Shown: in pieces, positions 7,410 to 20,605 of the stretch
Layout: each line of letters begins with the position of its first letter
Numbering within the stretch: the stretch's first letter is position 1
IMG/VR virus record: IMGVR_UViG_3300028388_000582
Location: 1-24,910 of that record
Direction: 5' to 3' (one strand)
DNA: 24,910 nt
Origin: a virus
Translations under genes and position numbers: made by a program
Notes under the pieces: generated by a model
What the model was told of the DNA's origin: nothing
Seen by the model: only the letters and a program-made list of their open reading frames with translations
The model's database searches: none

Positions 7410-9767
7410 TTATGCTCCCTTGAGTGCCGCTACTTCGGCCTTAAGTTCTTCAATCATTGCTTGCTGCTCTTGGATGGCTTTGATTGCCTTCATGTACATA
7501 ATGCTATACTTAACAGACTTCATGCCTTCTTCGTCAGTGCTGACAAGGCTACCCATTCCAGCTTCTTCAAGCTCCTGCGCTACCACACCAATATGCTTTG
7601 CGCCTGTGGAATTCAAGGTGTAGCTGCGAACACGGATAGCCATGATGTCGTCAAGCTGTGGGGAAGCGTCCACAATGTCAGACTTTAAGCGAGCATCTGA
7701 AATAGCGCCGTAGCTGTTGTTGTTATTCAGTATATCGCCGTCACGCTGCATTATTGCTACTAGATTTTCAGTAGAGCCAACATCAGAATAAAATGTTAAT
7801 AAAGAGCCGTTGTTTGTGCTGTTGGCTGAATAAAATGTTGCAGCCACTGCTGCCCCAGAAACAGCAAAACGCTCACTGCCCACTCCCGAAGTCCTAGCAA
7901 CCAGCAGGTTTCCGCTGGAGTCTAGGCGCATGCGCTCTTGATTGCCGTTGTTTGTAAACAAGTAAGCGTCAATGCTGTGGTCGTAACTGATACGGCCTGC
8001 GTCTACGTCAGCAGCATCTCCAAAAAAGATATGAGACTTTCCTGTGTTACTGGCTTGGATGGCAAGAATCTCAGTTGCAGTACCGTCACCAATATGGAGC
8101 GAATACGCTGGGTTTGTGTTACCAATACCAACGTTGCCGCTGGAGTCGAGAAACATGGTCGTGTCTTGAGCAGTACCTCTTACAAACGCAAGCCCATCAT
8201 TAGTGTCGCCGCCGTTATATCCAAATACGGTTGTTTCTGCGGCGTTGACTTCCCAATAAGAATCAGCGTTCCCGCCTCTTAAAATCTTAAAGCCGCCCTG
8301 AGAACTACCGCCCCGACTGACTGTTACATGAGCGCCTAAGCCGTCACTAGCTGTAAAATTTGCTAGGCCGTATGTTGCATCGTTTGTCCCTACAACAGAA
8401 AAAGTTGTAACAGGAGTATTACCGCTTTGAACACCAACTTTACCTTCTCGATCAATAATTAAATGATGAACGCCACTTTCGTAGTTATCTCGACCGGCAC
8501 TGAAGCGTAAGTCCATTTCGCCAAATTCGGACACGGATTTAGACCACATTCCAGCGTAGTGTGGCGGACTTCCAGAAGCGTCACCGTTTTCAAAAAGATA
8601 AGCGCCAATATAAGTGTTATTTGAGATAACTGATGTGGTATTACCGACAATTACGTCGGCACCTGTAGAGCTTTGTACTTCTAATGCCTTTCCGCCAATA
8701 GCTGCCGTTGGGGCAGTCTCACCAATACCAACGTTGCCGCTGGAGTCGATACGCATGGCTTCGATTGGGGCTACATCTGAATTGCTTTGGCGCGTCCTAA
8801 AGACTAATTCGCCTTTAAACGACGCTGTTCCGTCTTCTTCTATTGAAATATCAGCGTGGGCATACGTAGCAGTTCCGTTTCCAGAATCAAAGCCAAGCCT
8901 TGAAACACCTTGAACGCTTCCGCTGCCTCCTTCTGCGTTGCCTATTCTTACTGCGTAATCGCCCGCAGCATCAGCCCTGACGTGTAGTTTTGAATTTGGG
9001 CTGTCATAGCCAATACCAACGTTGCCGTTGCCAGCAACGCGTAGCGCCTCTGTCGTGCCATTAACCTTGAAGATGTGATCGCAAGATGTGCCTAAAGTTG
9101 TACCGACCGTATATTCTAGGTTCTCGCTTGCCGTCATGACGATTGAGCCGTCTTCTGCGCTGTTTCTATAAAACTTTAGGCCAGACTCTGTGTTGAAGTA
9201 TTTCTCAAAAGCTATATACCAATCAGTCCCCTGGTATCTGCCTATTTGTACCGTCCCAAGGGTAGGACTTGCAGTTTGGATTCCAACCCGATTATTCGTA
9301 GAGTCAACGTACAGCATTTGACTATCTACGGTTAGGTCGCCGTCAATGGTCACGCTTCCGGTGAACGATCCGCTGTCGGCGACAACCGTACCCGCCGCAG
9401 TTTTAGTGCCGCCGATGTTGATCGTCCAGGACGACTTGGTGCCACTGCCCGCGTAGCCGATCGCGTCGACAACCAGCGATGTCCCGCTGTAACTCGTAAC
9501 GATACAGTCCATAAAATTGGTCGATGGTGCCGCAGCGTCGGCGATCCTCAACGGTGTTCCGGGTTGATAGGGCTTCCCGGAATCCGCCGTCGTGAACGAC
9601 TTCGACCCGGTGCCAATCGCGACCGAACTGGTCGACGTCGAATTGTAAATGTCGCCCGCCTGGGTAACGAAGTCCTCGAAAGCGTCGGGCAATCCGTCGA
9701 CGTAGTTCTGGCCGGCGAAATCCGCCAGGGTGTAAGTTCTGCCGTTTAAGGTTACCGGGAATGCCAT
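7410..9767 (-). CDS. Tail fibre/spike with C-terminal S74 self-cleaving chaperone
   Basis: The 785-residue protein has an N-terminal virion-attachment region (1 to about 120, with GTGSKSFTTADSGKPYQPG), a long beta-rich shaft with repeats of the form DSSGNVGIG...P...L.V, and a C-terminal peptidase S74 chaperone. The chaperone shows the ISDARLKSDI dyad, Ser690 and Lys695, then HIGVVAQELEE and a terminal coiled coil (about 757-783). S74 domains trimerise the fibre and cut themselves off before the Ser. The mature fibre would be about 689 residues and bind a cell-surface receptor, often a polysaccharide. The ATG overlaps the upstream stop (TAATG). GC content drops sharply after about residue 140, a sign of exchange of the receptor-binding part. 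Confidence 0.92.
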   Translation of the reverse strand: MAFPVTLNGRTYTLADFAGQNYVDGLPDAFEDFVTQAGDIYNSTSTSSVAIGTGSKSFTTADSGKPYQPGTPLRIADAAAPSTNFMDCIVTSYSGTSLVVDAIGYAGSGTKSSWTINIGGTKTAAGTVVADSGSFTGSVTIDGDLTVDSQMLYVDSTNNRVGIQTASPTLGTVQIGRYQGTDWYIAFEKYFNTESGLKFYRNSAEDGSIVMTASENLEYTVGTTLGTSCDHIFKVNGTTEALRVAGNGNVGIGYDSPNSKLHVRADAAGDYAVRIGNAEGGSGSVQGVSRLGFDSGNGTATYAHADISIEEDGTASFKGELVFRTRQSNSDVAPIEAMRIDSSGNVGIGETAPTAAIGGKALEVQSSTGADVIVGNTTSVISNNTYIGAYLFENGDASGSPPHYAGMWSKSVSEFGEMDLRFSAGRDNYESGVHHLIIDREGKVGVQSGNTPVTTFSVVGTNDATYGLANFTASDGLGAHVTVSRGGSSQGGFKILRGGNADSYWEVNAAETTVFGYNGGDTNDGLAFVRGTAQDTTMFLDSSGNVGIGNTNPAYSLHIGDGTATEILAIQASNTGKSHIFFGDAADVDAGRISYDHSIDAYLFTNNGNQERMRLDSSGNLLVARTSGVGSERFAVSGAAVAATFYSANSTNNGSLLTFYSDVGSTENLVAIMQRDGDILNNNNSYGAISDARLKSDIVDASPQLDDIMAIRVRSYTLNSTGAKHIGVVAQELEEAGMGSLVSTDEEGMKSVKYSIMYMKAIKAIQEQQAMIEELKAEVAALKGA
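8121..9027. repeat. In-frame direct repeats in the tail fibre shaft
   Basis: A 29-bp stretch starting accaataccaacgttgccg occurs identically at 8121-8149 and 8721-8749, exactly 600 bp (200 codons) apart. A shorter copy (18 bp) lies at 9010-9027, 296 codons from the first. They encode the SSGNVGIG shaft motif and could support recombination between shaft units. Confidence 0.85.
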
Positions 9768-10612
9768 TAGATGATTTCCTCCACTTCGATCCTGCGCGTG
9801 TAGTGATCCAGAACGCGGTTTTCCACCGGGTTCAGTTCAGCCTGGCGCCCGTATATGTTTTGGGTGATGAACGTTGTTTCGTCGGTTTCCTGGGGAATCA
9901 CCAGGACATCCTCGGAAATACCTTTTCGCCGGTCCAGGTGGTTAAAAATGTTGTGAAACACTTCGGCGCCAGGTAGACCGTTTAATTCGAACGAAATCAC
10001 GCGATACCTGGGCAATATATCCACGAAGGTTTGACCGGTGCGCGACCGGGTGATTTTCGACGGGTCCACCCAGGAAATTTCCCAGCCATAACCCATTTCG
10101 TTGGTCGGTCGATAGCTTGGACCCGCAAACACCCGACCGACTTCGATCAGGTCGTTTCCATTCGCCAGGTCAATCCGCATATAACGCGCCTGGACCGCCT
10201 GGTCCAAAACGTCATAGTAGCTAATCGGATAATCCAGCGCAGCTTCGGCGGTCAGAATGCCGCCCCAGTGAAACTCCCCGTATGCCAGGTAACCGAATTC
10301 CTCGATCGTTGGCCATGCTGCGACCACCCCGGAATCGTATTCGGTGGTTGCGAACGTATCATCGTTCCCGATCCGAATTCGAACCGTCCCGGTGGTTTGG
10401 TCCAGGTTGTGTTTTAGAATGGCGACGACATCGATCACCCTAGACTGCGCGAAATCGAATTCCACGAACGCCGCCGACGAACTGTTCGCAATATAGCTTT
10501 TCCCCAGCTGGATACTCTGCAGGTTTTCCGCCGAAAAATAGGTCGAATCCTGCTCCGTAGTATGATCGGGAATCGTGCCGGAATCCACAAAATTGGTTGT
10601 CGCGATCAACAT
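9767..10612 (-). CDS. Tail-tip associated structural protein, discoidin-like region
   Basis: From the ATG at 10612 (TAATG overlap with the hub gene stop) the protein has 281 residues. Open sequence continues upstream to 10711 but only within the hub gene. The N-terminal half is beta-rich with FVEFDFAQSRVIDVVAILKHNL, GTVRIRIGNDD and ARYMRIDLANG, a pattern like discoidin (F5/8 C) beta-sandwiches. The C-terminal half has SWVDPSKITRSRTGQTFVD, PRYRVISFELNGL and RRIEVEEII, as in phage baseplate or tip proteins. It lies between hub and fibre, so it probably links them or adds a carbohydrate-binding surface to the tip. The family name is not certain. Confidence 0.65.
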   Translation of the reverse strand: MLIATTNFVDSGTIPDHTTEQDSTYFSAENLQSIQLGKSYIANSSSAAFVEFDFAQSRVIDVVAILKHNLDQTTGTVRIRIGNDDTFATTEYDSGVVAAWPTIEEFGYLAYGEFHWGGILTAEAALDYPISYYDVLDQAVQARYMRIDLANGNDLIEVGRVFAGPSYRPTNEMGYGWEISWVDPSKITRSRTGQTFVDILPRYRVISFELNGLPGAEVFHNIFNHLDRRKGISEDVLVIPQETDETTFITQNIYGRQAELNPVENRVLDHYTRRIEVEEII

Positions 10613-12120
10613 TAGAACGTCGCCTCCACGGTGATTTCGTTGGCTTCCAGGTCGATTATTTTCGAAATAATGACCATCCAGCGTTCGGACCCGATGCCAA
10701 ACCGGGAACAAGTAACCGCGATTATATCCCCCAGGCCGAAAGATAGGGGCGAACCCTTCATTTTGATCCTGAAAACTTTGTGGGTCTTTTCGTAGATTTC
10801 ATCCGCCAGGCGCGCCGCCTCGGTCGTCGCGTCGGTGACGTTCGTAATCAGCGAATCGACCGTGAAAACATCCCGCGAACTGTAAATGGTCGCGCTTTTG
10901 TCGCCGCCATCGGTAACCGATAAATATTTGCGAACTGCGTAATCCGCATCCGCCGGCGATGCCCCCAGCTCTGCCTGGGTTAGCGGTCGATAGTTGCGCT
11001 TGTAATTCACCGCCACCGACCAGGCCGGCGGAATTGTGGGCAACATTTCGATTTCGATGATGTCGTTGTCTGTAATGTATTCGGCAATTGTTGGCGTTCC
11101 ACTGGTCGGCGGATATTCAAAAACCAAAGGATAAATGGCGTTGTTGTTTTCGATCTTCCCTACCATCGACGCGCCGATCGAAACCAAAAACTGATTCATC
11201 GCGTCCAGGACTGTGATCCTATCCCGGAAATAACCGCCGACGCTGGTCAGTGAAGGCGGACCAAAAAATCCGCCACCGTAGACTTCCGGGTTCGTCGTGG
11301 GTTCCAGCCCAGCATATTCGACCGCAAGTTCGTACAATATCCCGCCCGCCCTGTTCGTAAACGATCCGTAAACGATGTCGTTCGTAGCATCGACCGTAAT
11401 CACCCCGCTGGGCGCGCTGGTTAGCTGTATGGTGCCTTTTGCTAGGTTTGCTGTGTAGTCAGTGCCCCCGCCGGTTAAAAGCTCCCCAGCCTCGTATACT
11501 GCGTCGATGGACGTGATCGCACCGTCGTGAACTTGGTATATGTGAGTTGTTTCGTTGGTCAGAACTGGCTCGACATTAAACACCTGCCCCAGGACAATCG
11601 GTTTCGGCGATCCGCTGGCGTTGCCCGACGTGAAATCGTTCGGTGGAAATACCTTGTTCAGCTTTTCTTTTAAATCCGACACCTCTAGGGTTACAGTTTG
11701 TTCGTCGAACCCGACCGACAAAATCACACCGCGAAAAATCGAGAAAAACCCGTCGACGACGGTTTCCCCTGGTTGGCCGATTAGGATTTCGACCGCCTTG
11801 TTGTCGAAATAGTAATCCGCCAGGTAATCCAGCCCACCGTCGCCGTTCGCCAGGACAATGGACCCGGTCGACGGCGAAACCACACCGCCAGCATTGCCCA
11901 GGCCGTACATGGATTCCGTAATGTTCAAAACCGACTGAACGCGCGGTTCAAAATAAACATAGTTCCAGGTTGGATCGGGAATGTAGCCTTTCTGCAGGAA
12001 CGGACGATCGGAAAATGGCAGCGTTGTCTCGGTTGTGCCGTCATCCTCGACGCAATCCACGAAAACAATAAACTGATAATCCGCCGAATAACTTAGTCGA
12101 ACCGCTTCGCGCAGTGCCAT
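10612..12120 (-). CDS. Tail-tip hub / tail-associated structural protein
   Basis: The 502-residue protein is beta-rich and low in helix. FSIFRGVILSVGFDEQTVTLEVSD and the C-terminal SFGLGDIIAVTCSRFGI...WMVIISKIIDLEANEITVEATF resemble the gp27/J-like hub domains at the end of siphovirus tubes. A central VLDAMNQFLVSIGASM segment and ATTEAARLADEIYEKTHK fit the same type. It would close the tail tube below the tape measure and carry the fibre and tip proteins. Both ends overlap neighbours by TAATG junctions, so the order tape measure, hub, tip protein, fibre is translated as a coupled series. Exact family not assigned. Confidence 0.7.
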   Translation of the reverse strand: MALREAVRLSYSADYQFIVFVDCVEDDGTTETTLPFSDRPFLQKGYIPDPTWNYVYFEPRVQSVLNITESMYGLGNAGGVVSPSTGSIVLANGDGGLDYLADYYFDNKAVEILIGQPGETVVDGFFSIFRGVILSVGFDEQTVTLEVSDLKEKLNKVFPPNDFTSGNASGSPKPIVLGQVFNVEPVLTNETTHIYQVHDGAITSIDAVYEAGELLTGGGTDYTANLAKGTIQLTSAPSGVITVDATNDIVYGSFTNRAGGILYELAVEYAGLEPTTNPEVYGGGFFGPPSLTSVGGYFRDRITVLDAMNQFLVSIGASMVGKIENNNAIYPLVFEYPPTSGTPTIAEYITDNDIIEIEMLPTIPPAWSVAVNYKRNYRPLTQAELGASPADADYAVRKYLSVTDGGDKSATIYSSRDVFTVDSLITNVTDATTEAARLADEIYEKTHKVFRIKMKGSPLSFGLGDIIAVTCSRFGIGSERWMVIISKIIDLEANEITVEATF

Positions 12121-15100
12121 TATTTGCGACTCCCAGCCAGTTGCGCCCCGGATGATCGGCCGACCTGGCGCCGCAGGGCCGCCACTTCCTCGCGAACTTC
12201 CTGAACCGCCTTGATTAGCTGGCGACCGCCGTCCTTCGAAATAGGCGAAACAGTGCCACCCTGTCCAGGAACGAATAACTCGGGTCCAGCTTCACCGACG
12301 ACCGACGCCTGGCCGCGCTCCAGGGGTCCACCGTACTGCCGGGCAACAATGCCAGCCGCCGCGTTGTACATAGTCCCGAATTCGTCGTCCAGGTTAAAAC
12401 TTGGAACGACCATTTTCAGGATTTCTTGCCCCATGTAATCATACAAAAATTCCGCAAGCTCACTAGAAAGCCCCTCGAAACCTTTCATGACTTCTATGTT
12501 TTGTTTAACCCCGGCCTTGGTGTCGCTTCCTGGCAATGGCGTTCTTTGATTTATTTTCCCTATTATTTCAACCGCTTTCGCCGCTTTAGTTACAATAGGA
12601 ATTCCATTTTCATCTAGTCCATATTCAGGAATCAAAAAGTCCTGCATGGATTTGCCAAATACATTGGATAGACCTGTCATTGCTCCCATGACGTTATCGC
12701 CAATCCAATTATCCTTGGCGATCATCATTTGAGCATTTGCCGCTCTGAACTGTTCCGTTCCGCCGTCTGAAAGAAAACTAGTAAAAAGTTTGATGGCCTG
12801 AAGAATTGCTGCGACATATTGCAAACCAGGAATAAATCCAAGAGTCTCACCAAATGGGGGCAACGGACCAAAATTTGCGACATCAGCCAAAGCGCCACCA
12901 CTTGCAAAACCTGGCAGTCTTCCGGCGTTCAATGCCTCAAAGAACCCGGCGCCGAACTTGGAAACCGAACTCGCCTGGATCACATATTCGCCGGGCGATA
13001 GCATTGCAGGAACCCGGTCCTCGCGCGGTCCGCCTGGGCCGGTAACACGACCACCGACCGCGAACCCTTCGACCTGGCCGCCGGTAGCTAAACCAGGAAC
13101 CAGGTTTTTAACGAAATTCAGACCGACCGACACGATCGCCTCAGCTGCGATTCGCTTCAATCCGTCAATGATAGAACCGACGAAATCATCGAATTCTAAC
13201 TTTCCTGAAGTAAAGAAATCAGCGAATGCGCCTTCCAGATCGGTTAGCGCGCCATTCAATAAACCGATCGCGCCCTCGCCTGCAGCGCCCGCGCCGATGG
13301 CATCAAAGAACCCGCGAATCTTGGTCAGCATCGGAACGCCGAACAACTGTCCCGCCGCTGTTTCCGCTTCCTTCAGTTTGGCTTCCAGCTTGTCCAGGGC
13401 TTCCCCTGGGTCGGTTCCCTTGGCGATTTCGTCGTAATAGTCTTTTATCATCGCCTGGCCTTGCGGTCCTGCCAGGTCACTAGCCGCCTGCTTCGCCGCC
13501 TCCAGGCGCGCTTTTAATGTCTGCAGGGTTGCACTAGTTCCATCGGTATTTTCGCCCAGGGCTTCGATCTGGGCTTCCAGGGCTTCGATTTCACGGTCTG
13601 CCTGGCGAATAGGGTCGACGATCCCGGTCATTTCCTCGTTGAAGTCCGCCAAGGAATCGTTGTATTCGTCCTGGGTGATCTTGCCGTTCGCCAACAGTTG
13701 ATCCAGGTTCTTCACCGCGTTCTGGTAATCACTTACCGCGTCGGTCGTTCCCTTGATTTCATCCAGCAAATCGATCTGGGCTTTTGTCAGTCCTTCAGTT
13801 TCCAGGATTAGGTCGGCTTGTTCGCCCTTCAGCTTTTCCAATTCGCGACGCATTGCCGCCAGCTGGGATTCGTTTTCGCCGCCCGTCTTGATCGCCGCAT
13901 CGATCGCCGCTTCGAGGGCTTTCTGTTTGTCGATGTTGTCCTGCAGTTCATCCTCGACGCCGGTAAGTTCCTTGGTCATTTCCGCCAGCATTCGGTTGAA
14001 ATCATCGCCGCCGATTTCGCCTTTGTTGAACTGCTCGGTCAGGATTGCGACTTTCTTCTGGAAATCATCGATCGACTTTGTCGGCGCCTTAACTTTGTCG
14101 CGCAGTTTCTCCAGCGCCTTCCGGAATTCATCGGTTTCAGTCGCCGCGACCTTTGATTCTTCGGCGATTTCGTCCACCGCGTCCGCGTGATCGTTCAGGG
14201 GGCGCTCAATGTTTTTGGTCGTTTTTTCTAAATCAGAGAGTGCCTTTTCCAAATCATCGGTCGAATCGGTCGCATCATCCGAACCGCCGACCATGTCATC
14301 CAAGGAATCGGTCGCCGCGACCACGTCGTCGGAAAACACGACCGCCGCTGTGCTGATTGCCGCCATTACTAGGCCGACCGGACCGAGCGCCGCCTGGGTT
14401 GCTATTGCCGCCACCCGGATCGTCGCCAGGGCTTTCCCCAAGGCGATCAGGGCGGTCGCAAATTGTATGACCCTCGTCACCGCCATCACCGCGATAAACC
14501 CGGCGAATAGCTTGGTTATCAGTCCCAGGTTGTCCAGTAGGAATTCGAATCCATCCAGCAGTTTCCCGGTCAATGGAACCGCCATTTCCGCCAGTTTCTC
14601 GGAAACCTTTTCCATTTGTGGCGCCGCTTCCGACAGCCCCTTGACCAGCGCAGCCTGAACTATTCCCTGAAACTTGGTCACCGAATCGTTGAACGACTCA
14701 ATTTGTCCCAGGGCGTTGTCGTCAATTTCTAGTCCCAGCGCCTTAAATTCAGCGCGCAGTTCGTCCAGACCTTCGGACCCGTGATCTAGGAAATTGAGTA
14801 GCTTAATCCCGCGATTAGAAAACAAATCCGACGCCGCCGCTGCGCGTTCCGCCGGGTTTTTAAGGTTCTTGAATTCGTCAGCAATTATTTTTAATTGCTT
14901 GTCCAGGGGCAGGGTGGCCAGCTTTTCGGCGGATATTCCGAATTTCTGCAGAACTTCCCGCGCCTGGCCGGTGCCGTCCGCCGCTTCACCGACCCGCTTC
15001 TGGAATATCTCCATTAGCTTGTTAAATGTGCCGGTTTCGACGCCCGCGTAATTTGCCGCCAGTTGTAGCGCGCCTAGGTCTTTTGCTGCGACGCCCAGCC

Positions 15101-15329
15101 GGGTCGATGTCTTGGCCAGGTTGTCGGCGGTTTCCAGGGCTTTTTTGGCCATTAACCCAAAACCAGCCGCACCAGCCGCCAGCCCGATGGCGGATGTCAT
15201 TCCGCCCAGGCTGGATTTTATTTGGCCGATGGCTTTGTTGGCGTTGTTTAGGTTGCCGCGCAGCGATGTAATGGCTTTGCCGGTGTTGTCCTTGCCGTCA
15301 AAGACGACCTTTACGGTTTGATTTGCCAT
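12120..15329 (-). CDS. Tail tape measure protein
   Basis: The 1069-residue protein sets tail length and enters the host envelope with the DNA. It begins with strands (ANQTVKVVFDGKDNTGKAI), has an Ala/Gly-rich stretch (about 45-60), a hydrophobic block (about 262-335), and long charged coiled coils (about 340-640) with repeated DFNxxL and TKEEFNE-like units, then Gly-rich C-terminal parts with SPGEYVIQASS and GEAGPELFVPG, both common in tape measures. The ATG overlaps the frameshifted chaperone ORF by 32 bp, with GAGG 6 nt upstream. At about 1.5 angstrom per residue the tail would be near 160 nm if uncut. A part at 12440-12940 differs in composition. Confidence 0.93.
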   Translation of the reverse strand: MANQTVKVVFDGKDNTGKAITSLRGNLNNANKAIGQIKSSLGGMTSAIGLAAGAAGFGLMAKKALETADNLAKTSTRLGVAAKDLGALQLAANYAGVETGTFNKLMEIFQKRVGEAADGTGQAREVLQKFGISAEKLATLPLDKQLKIIADEFKNLKNPAERAAAASDLFSNRGIKLLNFLDHGSEGLDELRAEFKALGLEIDDNALGQIESFNDSVTKFQGIVQAALVKGLSEAAPQMEKVSEKLAEMAVPLTGKLLDGFEFLLDNLGLITKLFAGFIAVMAVTRVIQFATALIALGKALATIRVAAIATQAALGPVGLVMAAISTAAVVFSDDVVAATDSLDDMVGGSDDATDSTDDLEKALSDLEKTTKNIERPLNDHADAVDEIAEESKVAATETDEFRKALEKLRDKVKAPTKSIDDFQKKVAILTEQFNKGEIGGDDFNRMLAEMTKELTGVEDELQDNIDKQKALEAAIDAAIKTGGENESQLAAMRRELEKLKGEQADLILETEGLTKAQIDLLDEIKGTTDAVSDYQNAVKNLDQLLANGKITQDEYNDSLADFNEEMTGIVDPIRQADREIEALEAQIEALGENTDGTSATLQTLKARLEAAKQAASDLAGPQGQAMIKDYYDEIAKGTDPGEALDKLEAKLKEAETAAGQLFGVPMLTKIRGFFDAIGAGAAGEGAIGLLNGALTDLEGAFADFFTSGKLEFDDFVGSIIDGLKRIAAEAIVSVGLNFVKNLVPGLATGGQVEGFAVGGRVTGPGGPREDRVPAMLSPGEYVIQASSVSKFGAGFFEALNAGRLPGFASGGALADVANFGPLPPFGETLGFIPGLQYVAAILQAIKLFTSFLSDGGTEQFRAANAQMMIAKDNWIGDNVMGAMTGLSNVFGKSMQDFLIPEYGLDENGIPIVTKAAKAVEIIGKINQRTPLPGSDTKAGVKQNIEVMKGFEGLSSELAEFLYDYMGQEILKMVVPSFNLDDEFGTMYNAAAGIVARQYGGPLERGQASVVGEAGPELFVPGQGGTVSPISKDGGRQLIKAVQEVREEVAALRRQVGRSSGAQLAGSRK

Positions 15330-15845
15330 TCATCGCCTCTTTGCGCTGCGTTTCGTATTCCTCGTTTTGTATTTTGAGGAACACCGACCATTCGACGAAT
15401 TCCTCGACGGACATTTCGGCTTCTAACTGCGACACGGTCATCCCGAGCCTTTCCGCCAGGACAAAGCGAAAACGCCTGTCCGCCGATTCCCTTAGTTTTT
15501 TTCGAGCGATGCCTCGTCGGTAGACATGATCGAATTCGCTACGCGCGCCACCACGTTCGCGTCGACGTCATTTCGGAGCGCGTTTTTGTCCTCGATGGTG
15601 AACAGCTTTTCGCCGTCCTCGTCCATCAATTTCATAATCAGCAGTTCCGCCAAAACGTCCGCCTGGGATTGCTTCTCGGTAATATACTGCAGCCTTCCCT
15701 GGTCTTTGAGGGTGAAGGGGGTCGAGTAGGCGATTAACGGTCCTTCCTCGTCCCCCCATTCGGGAATTTCGATACGCTTCAGGGGCTTGGCTTTGTAATG
15801 CTCCGTTGCCCGCTGAATCGCCGTCGACTTCCTTTTGGTCGCCAT
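15298..15845 (-). CDS. Tail assembly chaperone gpG-gpT-like fusion by programmed -1 frameshift
   Basis: Ribosomes that slip -1 at A AAA AAC (15501-15495) leave the 117-codon frame and read 65 further codons to the TGA at 15298, giving about 182 residues. The extension reads LRESADRRFRFVLAERLG, then MTVSQLEAEMSVEEFVEW, then a charged end. This is the usual make-up of the T part of lambda-like chaperones, which recruits tube protein while the G part coats the tape measure. The extension overlaps the tape measure start by 32 bp. It is too short to show up as an ordinary gene. The slip signal, reading frame and genome position agree with each other. Confidence 0.85.
15459..15515 (-). promoter_or_regulatory. 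-1 ribosomal frameshift signal
   Basis: Three parts are in order on the minus strand: a Shine-Dalgarno-like GAGG (15515-15512), a 10-nt spacer, the heptamer A AAA AAC in the zero frame (15501-15495) with the stop TAA next, a 13-nt spacer, and a stem-loop at 15481-15459 (GGACA...TGTCC plus GCG/CGC, TTTT loop). The layout resembles the E. coli dnaX frameshift site. Confidence 0.85.
15492..15845 (-). CDS. Tail assembly chaperone gpG-like (unshifted product)
   Basis: The 117-residue protein is the more abundant chaperone form expected before frameshifting. It has a basic start (MATKRKSTAIQRATEHYKAK), then RIEIPEWGDEEGPLIAYSTPFTLKDQGRL, the strand-rich part found in siphovirus tail chaperones, and a helical part EDKNALRNDVDANVVARVANSIM. 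It lies exactly between the tube protein and the tape measure, the standard position. The ATG overlaps the tube protein stop (TAATG). It ends at TAA directly after the slippery codons GAA AAA AAC. It would bind the tape measure during assembly and be absent from the virion. Confidence 0.88.
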   Translation of the reverse strand: MATKRKSTAIQRATEHYKAKPLKRIEIPEWGDEEGPLIAYSTPFTLKDQGRLQYITEKQSQADVLAELLIMKLMDEDGEKLFTIEDKNALRNDVDANVVARVANSIMSTDEASLEKN

Positions 15846-16237
15846 TATGATGCGGTTCCTTCAGTCAGCGCGCCGGTTCCCTGCAGGGTCAATGATGCTT
15901 CGACCATGCCGTCGAATGAACCGGTGATGGTTCGACCTGTAACCAGAGCGGTTCCAGTCAGTTCGTGCGAACCAGTTGTGTCGCCTTCCATCAAGAAAGA
16001 AACGGTCACCTCGCTTCCCACGGTCAAGGCGCCCTGTCCATTGGTGTCGGTGTCATCAAAAAACACGTCGACCGAACCAGAAAACGACTTCAGGCTGGTT
16101 TTGTATGTGCGATAAGTATCGCCCATCGAAGTGTCCTCGATGGTGTCCATTGTTTCGTCGATATTGTAAGAACGGATTTCCGCGATCGCGTTAGCGCCGA
16201 CCTTTACGGTTCCGCTGTTCCCCTTGAATGTTGCCAT
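15845..16237 (-). CDS. Major tail tube protein
   Basis: The 130-residue protein is beta-rich: GNSGTVKVGANAIAEIRSYNIDE, then DTSMGDTYRTYKTSLKSFSGSVDVFFDDTD, SEVTVSFLMEG and SGSFDGMVEASLTLQGTG. This is the shape of small siphovirus tube proteins of the lambda gpV / tail-tube superfamily without an added Ig domain. It polymerises as hexamer rings around the tape measure. GAGGG lies about 9 nt before the ATG. The small gene upstream overlaps its start by 47 bp. Its product should be among the most abundant tail proteins. Confidence 0.88.
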   Translation of the reverse strand: MATFKGNSGTVKVGANAIAEIRSYNIDETMDTIEDTSMGDTYRTYKTSLKSFSGSVDVFFDDTDTNGQGALTVGSEVTVSFLMEGDTTGSHELTGTALVTGRTITGSFDGMVEASLTLQGTGALTEGTAS

Positions 16238-18034: not shown

Positions 18035-19294
18035 TTAGGCCGTGGTAACGTCTTGGATCGCTGCGAACGACTCGGCATGACGAACCGCCACATCGATGTC
18101 CTGGTACATGGCAACGCGAACGGCGCCAGTAGTAGACAGCGAATAGGGGTCGATCAACACATCGAGACCGCCGAACATACCAATCATAAGATCGGCAAAG
18201 TTTCCAAACACTACCGCAGAACAAACGCCAGAGCTTGTTCCCTTGTCCAAATCGGACGGAACCAGGGTGGTGCTTGCTACGTTGTAGCCCAACAGGGTGT
18301 TGGAGTCGTTCAGGATGAAGTTACCTTCGACGCCGCTAGCCTGGCGCGGAGTTTGACGCATTGCAGCGACGACCTTGGGGTTCGTCAAATACGCCAGGTT
18401 TCCAGCCAGTGCATTGTCGATTGCGACTTCACGCTCAAGAGAAACTAGCGATGCAAAAGTGATTGCTCCGCCATTGGTGCCCTGGGCAACACTGCCGATG
18501 CCATTGGTTCCCAGGATGCCGGTGGGTTCGTTTGAACCGCCGCCCTGGATAGCCACCTGGTCGATCTTCGCAGCAAATTGACGGGTCATGTCGTCGCGGA
18601 TGATTTGCTCGACGCTGGGGTCGCTCTGCATCATCAGCTTTCGACCGATGTCGACGTGCTGAACCAGGGTTTTGGGTGACATGGTTACCTGGCGGAATGA
18701 AGGCGCGCCTTCGGTGCCGGGTGCGTTGTTTTCTGCTACGAATCCAACAGCAGTTTTCGCGTTCAGTGCTGGAATGGCAACGTCGCCCTTTAAGCCCTGC
18801 ATCATGCGAGCGCCCAGGCCAGAAATGACCAGGTTAGCGCGCAGCGCATCGATGAACTCACCGCCCAGGTGATCGGTTGGAACCAGGTTCGAACCGTTCG
18901 CGGGTGATGCGGTCGTGATGTCACGCTTGAAAATGTTGTTGGGAACGTAGAAACCACGCGGTTCCTTGCCGTAACGCTTCGCCAATTCCTCGGACACTTC
19001 ACGCTCAAGGCCATCAAAACGACCAGCAGCCGCGCTTTGGATAGCCTTGGTCAGCGAGTATGCGCGCTGTTCTTTGGCCGTCATGTCGACTTCTGCGATG
19101 TCCAGGGGCTTGTCGGCGATCTTGTCCAACAATGCGCCACGGAACTGGGCAAGGTTCATCCCCTGGCGAATAGCTTCATCAGCAAAACCGCGCTGATTGT
19201 GCTTGGCCGCCAGGCCCATGATTTCGTTAATTTCTTTGGACCGTTCAGCCGCAGCTTCAGCGCGCACCTGGTCCAGATCGATTTGCTGTTCCAT
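18035..19294 (-). CDS. Internal in-frame scaffold-major capsid product (nested start)
   Basis: An ATG at 19294 (Met438 of the fused ORF) has a perfect AGGAGG at 19308-19303, 8 nt upstream, inside the long gene. This would make a 419-residue product: a helical scaffold/delta-like part (about 1-120 of this product, MEQQIDLDQVRAEAAAE onward) and an HK97-fold major capsid protein. The capsid part shows LVPTDHLGGEFIDALR, AVGFVAENNAPGTEG, MSPKTLVQHVDIGRKLMMQ and the NEPTGILG loop, all typical of this fold. Free capsid subunits are needed in large excess over protease, which this start would provide. The start is inferred from sequence. Confidence 0.8.
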   Translation of the reverse strand: MEQQIDLDQVRAEAAAERSKEINEIMGLAAKHNQRGFADEAIRQGMNLAQFRGALLDKIADKPLDIAEVDMTAKEQRAYSLTKAIQSAAAGRFDGLEREVSEELAKRYGKEPRGFYVPNNIFKRDITTASPANGSNLVPTDHLGGEFIDALRANLVISGLGARMMQGLKGDVAIPALNAKTAVGFVAENNAPGTEGAPSFRQVTMSPKTLVQHVDIGRKLMMQSDPSVEQIIRDDMTRQFAAKIDQVAIQGGGSNEPTGILGTNGIGSVAQGTNGGAITFASLVSLEREVAIDNALAGNLAYLTNPKVVAAMRQTPRQASGVEGNFILNDSNTLLGYNVASTTLVPSDLDKGTSSGVCSAVVFGNFADLMIGMFGGLDVLIDPYSLSTTGAVRVAMYQDIDVAVRHAESFAAIQDVTTA

Positions 19295-20605
19295 TTTTGG
19301 AACCTCCTTTTCGACGGGTTTAATAGTTGCGTTGTCTGGAACTTCGACCGAACGCCCGACACCGACTGACTGGTCGGCGGGCAGGCTTACGATTGAGACC
19401 TCCATAATTTCGGCGTCTGTCACCCGGAACAAATCGCTTTGATTTGTGTCGCGCTCCATCTTCCGAACTTTGTAGCCGATCGAGACATTTGATCGAATGC
19501 CATCGACTACATCCTGGTAGAACTCGGTGGCAAGCGCGCTTCGACTGAAGCGAACCGTCGCCCGGAGTCGCCGGGCCGATCCATCGAGACTAACAGATTC
19601 GACAACCCCGATTTGCCGCTCGGGGTCATGGTCCGCCAATAGTGGCGCATGGCCGGACCGTAAAAAATCCAGGTTCAGCGTTTCTTCGCTGTGAACGATA
19701 ACCTCACGACCGAACGAACGCTCGACTGGGGTTTCGCTGGAAATCGACATTTGAACGCGACGGTCGTCGACGCTCTCGATTTCGGAATGCTCCATCCGGT
19801 GGACCACTTCGGCTTTGCTGAACCGCTCCTCGGTCGTTTCTTCGACTTCGGGTTCGTCGTCGTGTTCTTCGTCATACTTCGAAAACGTGATGACGATTTC
19901 GTCATCCGTTTCAGTGATGCCTTTAATGTGTCGCTTCACTTTACGTTCCTCGCTTGCTTGTTCGAACTTTACCGGTTCGAACTCGTGTTCGTCCAGCCAT
20001 TCGCGCGCTTGGTCTGCAGTATAACGCGCCGCGTCAAATCGGATGCTCTGAATTTCCGACTGGCGCTCGTCGCCATCCGTATAAATTCCATAAATAAAAT
20101 CGATTCCTGAACCGCCGGCGTCGACTTCCCTTCGGAATTCGTCATATTTTGCCGGGTCATTAATCCGCGCCGCGTGTTCGTTCGGATACGGTCGCACCTC
20201 TTGGCGTTCGTCGCGCTTGCTGATTAGCTGGCGAATGACCTGTTTCATTCGGGCTTCGCCCAGGTTGCCGATCACGCCCCACTTAATTTGTGCAATGATG
20301 CCCGCCACGTTCCCCAGGTTGGGTTCCAGCTCGTCGTCCTGGAACTGCGCGCCGTCGTCAAAATGTCTCGCTGCCCAGGCTTCGCGTTCCTTGATCCAAT
20401 CCAAAACCTCGCCGGCTTCGTCCCCATCCCTGGCGCGTTCCCATAACCGGAACGCTTCATTCCCGCGAATGTTGCCACCCGTCGCCCAGATTTCCGGATG
20501 CTCATCCGCCACCATGTCGGCGAATTCTCGGTCGAACTGTGGGTATTCTGAATTCCGCAGCGAAATTTTCAGGTCGTCGCCTTCCTTTGGGAAATTAGTC
20601 GCCAT
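18035..20605 (-). CDS. Fused prohead protease, scaffold and major capsid protein with two N-terminal domains
   Basis: The 856-residue protein holds five parts. Residues 1-130 form a domain with DEHPEIWATGGNIRGNEAF and KEREAWAARHF. Residues 138-220 form a second domain with RPYPNEHAARINDPAKY and IQSIRFDAARYT. An acidic linker covers 230-280. Residues about 285-420 form an HK97-type (S78) protease with ADHD (His326), SNVSIGY (Ser375) and IMEVSIVSLPADQSVGVG. Residues 438-560 are scaffold-like and 560-856 are capsid. The ATG lies 11 bp inside the portal gene end, with GAGG upstream. Protease-capsid fusions are known, and the protease would free the capsid part. A nested start is listed separately. 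Confidence 0.9.
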   Translation of the reverse strand: MATNFPKEGDDLKISLRNSEYPQFDREFADMVADEHPEIWATGGNIRGNEAFRLWERARDGDEAGEVLDWIKEREAWAARHFDDGAQFQDDELEPNLGNVAGIIAQIKWGVIGNLGEARMKQVIRQLISKRDERQEVRPYPNEHAARINDPAKYDEFRREVDAGGSGIDFIYGIYTDGDERQSEIQSIRFDAARYTADQAREWLDEHEFEPVKFEQASEERKVKRHIKGITETDDEIVITFSKYDEEHDDEPEVEETTEERFSKAEVVHRMEHSEIESVDDRRVQMSISSETPVERSFGREVIVHSEETLNLDFLRSGHAPLLADHDPERQIGVVESVSLDGSARRLRATVRFSRSALATEFYQDVVDGIRSNVSIGYKVRKMERDTNQSDLFRVTDAEIMEVSIVSLPADQSVGVGRSVEVPDNATIKPVEKEVPKMEQQIDLDQVRAEAAAERSKEINEIMGLAAKHNQRGFADEAIRQGMNLAQFRGALLDKIADKPLDIAEVDMTAKEQRAYSLTKAIQSAAAGRFDGLEREVSEELAKRYGKEPRGFYVPNNIFKRDITTASPANGSNLVPTDHLGGEFIDALRANLVISGLGARMMQGLKGDVAIPALNAKTAVGFVAENNAPGTEGAPSFRQVTMSPKTLVQHVDIGRKLMMQSDPSVEQIIRDDMTRQFAAKIDQVAIQGGGSNEPTGILGTNGIGSVAQGTNGGAITFASLVSLEREVAIDNALAGNLAYLTNPKVVAAMRQTPRQASGVEGNFILNDSNTLLGYNVASTTLVPSDLDKGTSSGVCSAVVFGNFADLMIGMFGGLDVLIDPYSLSTTGAVRVAMYQDIDVAVRHAESFAAIQDVTTA

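Follow-up and report, generated by a model that had tools for sequence, protein, structure and literature searches.

The window analysed here is the whole IMG/VR virus record IMGVR_UViG_3300028388_000582 (24,910 bases), and we found that it almost certainly carries a tail assembly chaperone gene of the lambda G/GT type, predicted to be expressed by programmed -1 frameshifting. The slippery site, the -1 frame, their conservation, the family and the fold are observed, whereas the slippage, the rate at which it happens and the part played in tail assembly are our inference. The locus adds a well-supported, if ordinary, case to what is otherwise textbook biology. It also corrects annotation, as the T extension is unannotated in the phage group of the window and in its Pelagibacter and Roseobacter relatives (HTVC026P and CRP-823).

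The slippery site and the -1 reading frame

The G-like open reading frame has 117 codons and ends in CTC GAA AAA AAC TAA (Table 1). After a -1 slip on the heptamer, the product would continue as LRESADRRFRFVLAERLG...RKGRL for 65 codons, and the translation of this complete -1 frame is LRESADRRFRFVLAERLGMTVSQLEAEMSVEEFVEWSVFLKIQNEEYETQRKEAMNGKSNRKGRL. Its stop codon is the TGA at 15300-15298, which lies within the tape measure open reading frame; the latter starts with the ATG at 15329 and shares its first 32 nt with the end of the T extension. Codon usage alone predicts GAA AAA AAC at the slip site with p = 0.06 per locus, and among the listed genes of the window we found no second case of a zero-frame slippery heptamer at a gene end followed by a long -1 frame. 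The earlier note had described the heptamer, its zero-frame phase, the 65-codon -1 frame and its end in the tape measure gene, and all of these proved correct to the base. Its central proposal, that a gpT-like extension is added to a tail assembly chaperone by programmed -1 frameshifting, is strongly supported by the conservation, the heptamer swap, the family matches and the fold presented below.

The G/GT frameshift of lambda takes place on the heptamer G GGA AAG (Levin 1993 and Xu 2004, as cited in PMC5009743), and this kind of frameshift is widely conserved among long-tailed dsDNA phages, with many G and few GT proteins binding the tape measure protein and T binding the major tail protein (PMC5009743). 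In the window, most ribosomes would halt at the TAA and release a 117-aa G protein, and a minority would slip by -1 on A AAA AAC, where tRNA-Lys and tRNA-Asn would re-pair with AAA AAA, to produce a 182-aa G-T fusion. Slippage at the end of the gene very likely adds a 65-residue domain that would bind the tail protein. If the lambda model applies, the tape measure protein would be coated by many copies of G and few of GT, T would recruit the major tail protein, and both G and GT would depart before the tail is completed.

Table 1. Features of the predicted frameshift locus and its neighbouring genes in the window
Feature	Coordinates	Strand	Remarks
Major tail protein gene	15845..16237	-	PHROG 1407, E 1.1e-14; upstream neighbour of G
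G-like gene, tail assembly chaperone	15492..15845	-	117 aa, product without frameshift; PHROG 344 and fold
GAGG, possible internal Shine-Dalgarno	15512..15515	-	10 nt upstream of the heptamer
Slippery heptamer A AAA AAC	15495..15501	-	zero frame, X XXY YYZ phase, abuts the TAA stop
T-like extension, -1 frame	15298..15495	-	65 codons and stop; predicted GT fusion 182 aa
Hairpin proposed in the earlier note	15459..15481	-	23 nt, 13 nt downstream of the heptamer
Tape measure protein gene	12120..15329	-	PF09718 Tape_meas_lam_C and tape-measure PHROGs

Conservation of the junction among relatives

We compared the window with 51 relatives from IMG/VR, down to 53% identity, which together with the window give 34 distinct junctions. 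An alignment of related phages had been proposed in the earlier note as a check, and the results showed that 51/51 relatives end G, at the position used in the window, with a zero-frame slippery heptamer, and that the -1 frame is open in all; a relative that keeps the protein and lacks both was absent. The heptamer is mostly A AAA AAC and is G GGA AAC in contigs L061-L064 (1433-1439 in L061), where EKN becomes EGN and Lys is replaced by Gly with slipperiness kept, and therefore the slip, not the residue, is conserved. This exchange between closely related phages serves as a clean natural control, indicating that selection acts on slipping. The stop codon of G is TAA or TGA among the relatives, and in L080, L081 and L083-L087 it lies one codon past the heptamer (AAC TCC TAA), so that the stop need not abut the heptamer.

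The -1 frame itself behaves as protein-coding sequence. Over 50 codons it contains 0 stops in 34/34 junctions, whereas the remaining two frames average 2.9 and 2.8 stops, and its substitutions at codon positions 1, 2 and 3 (0.21/0.12/0.48) show the third-position excess of the protein-coding type. Homopolymer runs are generally error-prone, and the split might have arisen through faulty sequencing or assembly, or through decay of a single gene. However, 51 further contigs and several deposited genomes share the split, with both TAA and TGA stops and with the shifted stop of the L080 group, and both frames are under purifying selection (dN/dS about 0.10 in the -1 frame vs 0.08 in G). The recurrence excludes sequencing error, and error or decay, already contradicted by these results, has a practically negligible probability.

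A-runs are a known substrate of polymerase slippage (reviewed in PMC5009743), and the slip site is an A7 run, longer still in HTVC026P, on which RNA polymerase could add an A and produce the fusion from edited mRNA. We consider this very unlikely, since L061-L064 and Streptomyces phage Wentworth have, in the equivalent position, G GGA AAC, which includes no long homopolymer, and the feature that is kept is the heptamer suited to a tandem slip.

Another explanation is that T is a separate gene with its own start, such as the ATG present at 15441 in the -1 frame, reached by reinitiation past the G stop or by translational coupling, and some annotations do split T off as a gene, e.g., Wentworth gp22. 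Against this, the -1 frame from its upstream stop (15570) to 15441 contains no ATG, GTG or TTG, the 18 residues ahead of the ATG are among the most conserved, and in L063, L067, L070, L078, L080 and L082 a Lys or Arg stands in place of the Met. An independent start for T was rejected because the relatives lack a conserved start codon, and a separate gene, which would also leave the invariance of the slippery heptamer and its swap to G GGA AAC without explanation, is extremely improbable. An open -1 frame for a conserved T domain that lacks a start of its own, preceded by a zero-frame XXXYYYZ heptamer close to where G ends, is the arrangement of a G/GT frameshift.

Deposited phages have the same arrangement. 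CRP-823 and HTVC026P contain A AAA AAC TAA followed by an open T-like -1 frame, and phi3LM21 contains A AAA AAC and a T-like -1 frame, only part of which is covered by a separate small open reading frame; the GT fusion is left out of all three annotations, wholly or in part. The candidate shift site is G GGA AAC in Wentworth and A AAA AAG in Mcat13. The chaperone of Rhodococcus phage REQ1 (L033, 1208-1606) carries a matching T region, and a scan of the final 200 nt of the REQ1 G gene found no canonical XXXYYYZ heptamer of the scanned kinds.

Family, fold and gene context

Both sequence and fold link G to known tail assembly chaperones. It matched PHROG 344 (tail assembly chaperone) with an E value of 3.6e-10 and showed a weak match, under the cut-off, to Pfam PF16459 (Phage_TAC_13). 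The AlphaFold model of G has a pLDDT of 84, and its best match in the PDB is the HK97 tail assembly chaperone 2OB9 (Foldseek E 1.1e-3), which has the same fold (VIA Z 9.7, rmsd 3.5 over 103 residues) with only 16% identity. PDB sequence searches with the G and T profiles found nothing, and NCBIfam gave no relevant match.

The T extension is predicted to form a three-helix domain. It matches the T part of the chaperone of Burkholderia phage KS9, annotated as a joined CDS (E 3e-5), and likewise the equivalent frames of Moraxella, Streptomyces and Rhodococcus phages. The G model and the T model each match a single viral protein of 179 aa, D6PII1, as would be expected of a chain in which G and T are fused.

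The G/T pair is placed between the major tail protein (PHROG 1407) and tape measure genes, the position of G/GT genes, and the major tail protein is the expected client of the T domain. On the minus strand, the order of genes starts with a terminase large subunit of the gpA type, a lambda-family portal and a fused S78 protease-capsid protein, continues with a lambda FII-like head-tail attachment protein, a U-like tail terminator, the major tail protein and G, and after G proceeds to T, the tape measure, the tail fibre, and endolysin and replication genes. With its gpA terminase and lambda portal, the phage is a lambda-like tailed phage. A single 856-aa open reading frame (18035-20605, minus strand) joins the head maturation protease (S78) to the major capsid protein, and its initial ~270 residues have no family match. 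The gap from the tape measure to the tail fibre (9767-12120, minus strand) holds two open reading frames whose only matches are to PHROGs without an assigned function (8610 and 8917).

The closest annotated relatives of G belong to Pelagibacter, Roseobacter and Sinorhizobium phages, and because of these relatives the window phage may plausibly have an alphaproteobacterial host. A scan of genome contigs with the G profile gave no confirmed relatives and no host assignment.

Known systems and candidate stimulators

A AAA AAC is not an unusual site, as it is a documented tail-chaperone shift site in the phiCbK-like Caulobacter phages (gp93/gp94), where the slippery sequence is AAAAAAC, and GGGAAAC in phage Colossus (PMC3556154). 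This exchange is the same as that in L061-L064; the likeness concerns the shift sites only, and the phiCbK-like phages, unlike the window phage, are giant prolate siphophages. As in lambda, the site of the window is flanked by the genes for the major tail protein and the tape measure, with the -1 slip near the end of G, and the T-like extension shows, by eye, the motif F..LA..G....L..MS..E[FY].[DE]W. The two differ in that the window heptamer is A AAA AAC and abuts the stop, in that the T extension has 65 codons vs 144 in lambda, and in that the window G and T have no significant sequence match to lambda gpG or gpT in an hhalign profile comparison. KS9 gp11/gp12 has the same kind of T part and likewise slips by -1 shortly before G ends, but the candidate site there, the A run A AAA AAA, precedes the stop by 33 nt, whereas that of the window is at the stop.

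The frameshift of E. coli dnaX uses A AAA AAG with an upstream Shine-Dalgarno and a stem-loop. The window locus is similar in its A-rich heptamer and the Shine-Dalgarno-like motif upstream; unlike dnaX, it has AAC instead of AAG, its stem-loop is not conserved, the gene is unrelated, and the shift product is longer, not shorter. Of the dnaX-like three-part layout suggested in the earlier note, only part is supported: the A-rich heptamer stood, a Shine-Dalgarno-like motif is present without a fixed 10-nt spacing and is a possible stimulator, and the stem-loop did not hold up.

The hairpin folds well alone (-10.7 kcal/mol, z -4.1), but the minimum-energy structure of the 61 nt downstream does not include it, and this segment is itself unremarkable (z -1.1). 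Across the relatives, its pairs are formed in 57% of cells, compared to 45-56% for slid controls, RNAalifold found no consensus pair, and the minimum-energy folds of the downstream region differ from relative to relative. A conserved downstream stem-loop was rejected on these results, and the hairpin is probably not a conserved element.

A Shine-Dalgarno-like 4-mer lies 5-17 nt upstream of the heptamer in 17/17 representatives, vs 12.1 expected by synonymous resampling (p 0.0015, a generous value because the representatives are related to each other). GAGG at exactly 10 nt occurs in 6/17 representatives vs 5.9 expected, and a fixed 10-nt spacing was rejected, since codon usage predicts about the same frequency. 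The anti-Shine-Dalgarno duplex energy over the region was not significant (61/500 resamplings at least as strong). The position of the motif drifts, and the encoded Glu and Gly residues account for much of it; an internal Shine-Dalgarno stimulator is suggestive only.

The measured efficiencies of two phage chaperone sites are 6-7% (PMC3711429). As a counterpoint, A AAA AAC is far less shift-prone in E. coli than A AAA AAG (PMC5009743), and the slippage rate in the host of the window phage is uncertain for this reason. We tentatively consider, with more doubt than confidence, that this lineage shifts efficiently on A AAA AAC or G GGA AAC, types of heptamer that are weak in E. coli, with a stop immediately after, only Shine-Dalgarno-like help and no conserved 3' structure; if so, tRNA or ribosome properties of the host would set the G:GT ratio. 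Of modest interest is the fact that a heptamer weak in E. coli is kept here with an abutting stop and without a conserved structure.
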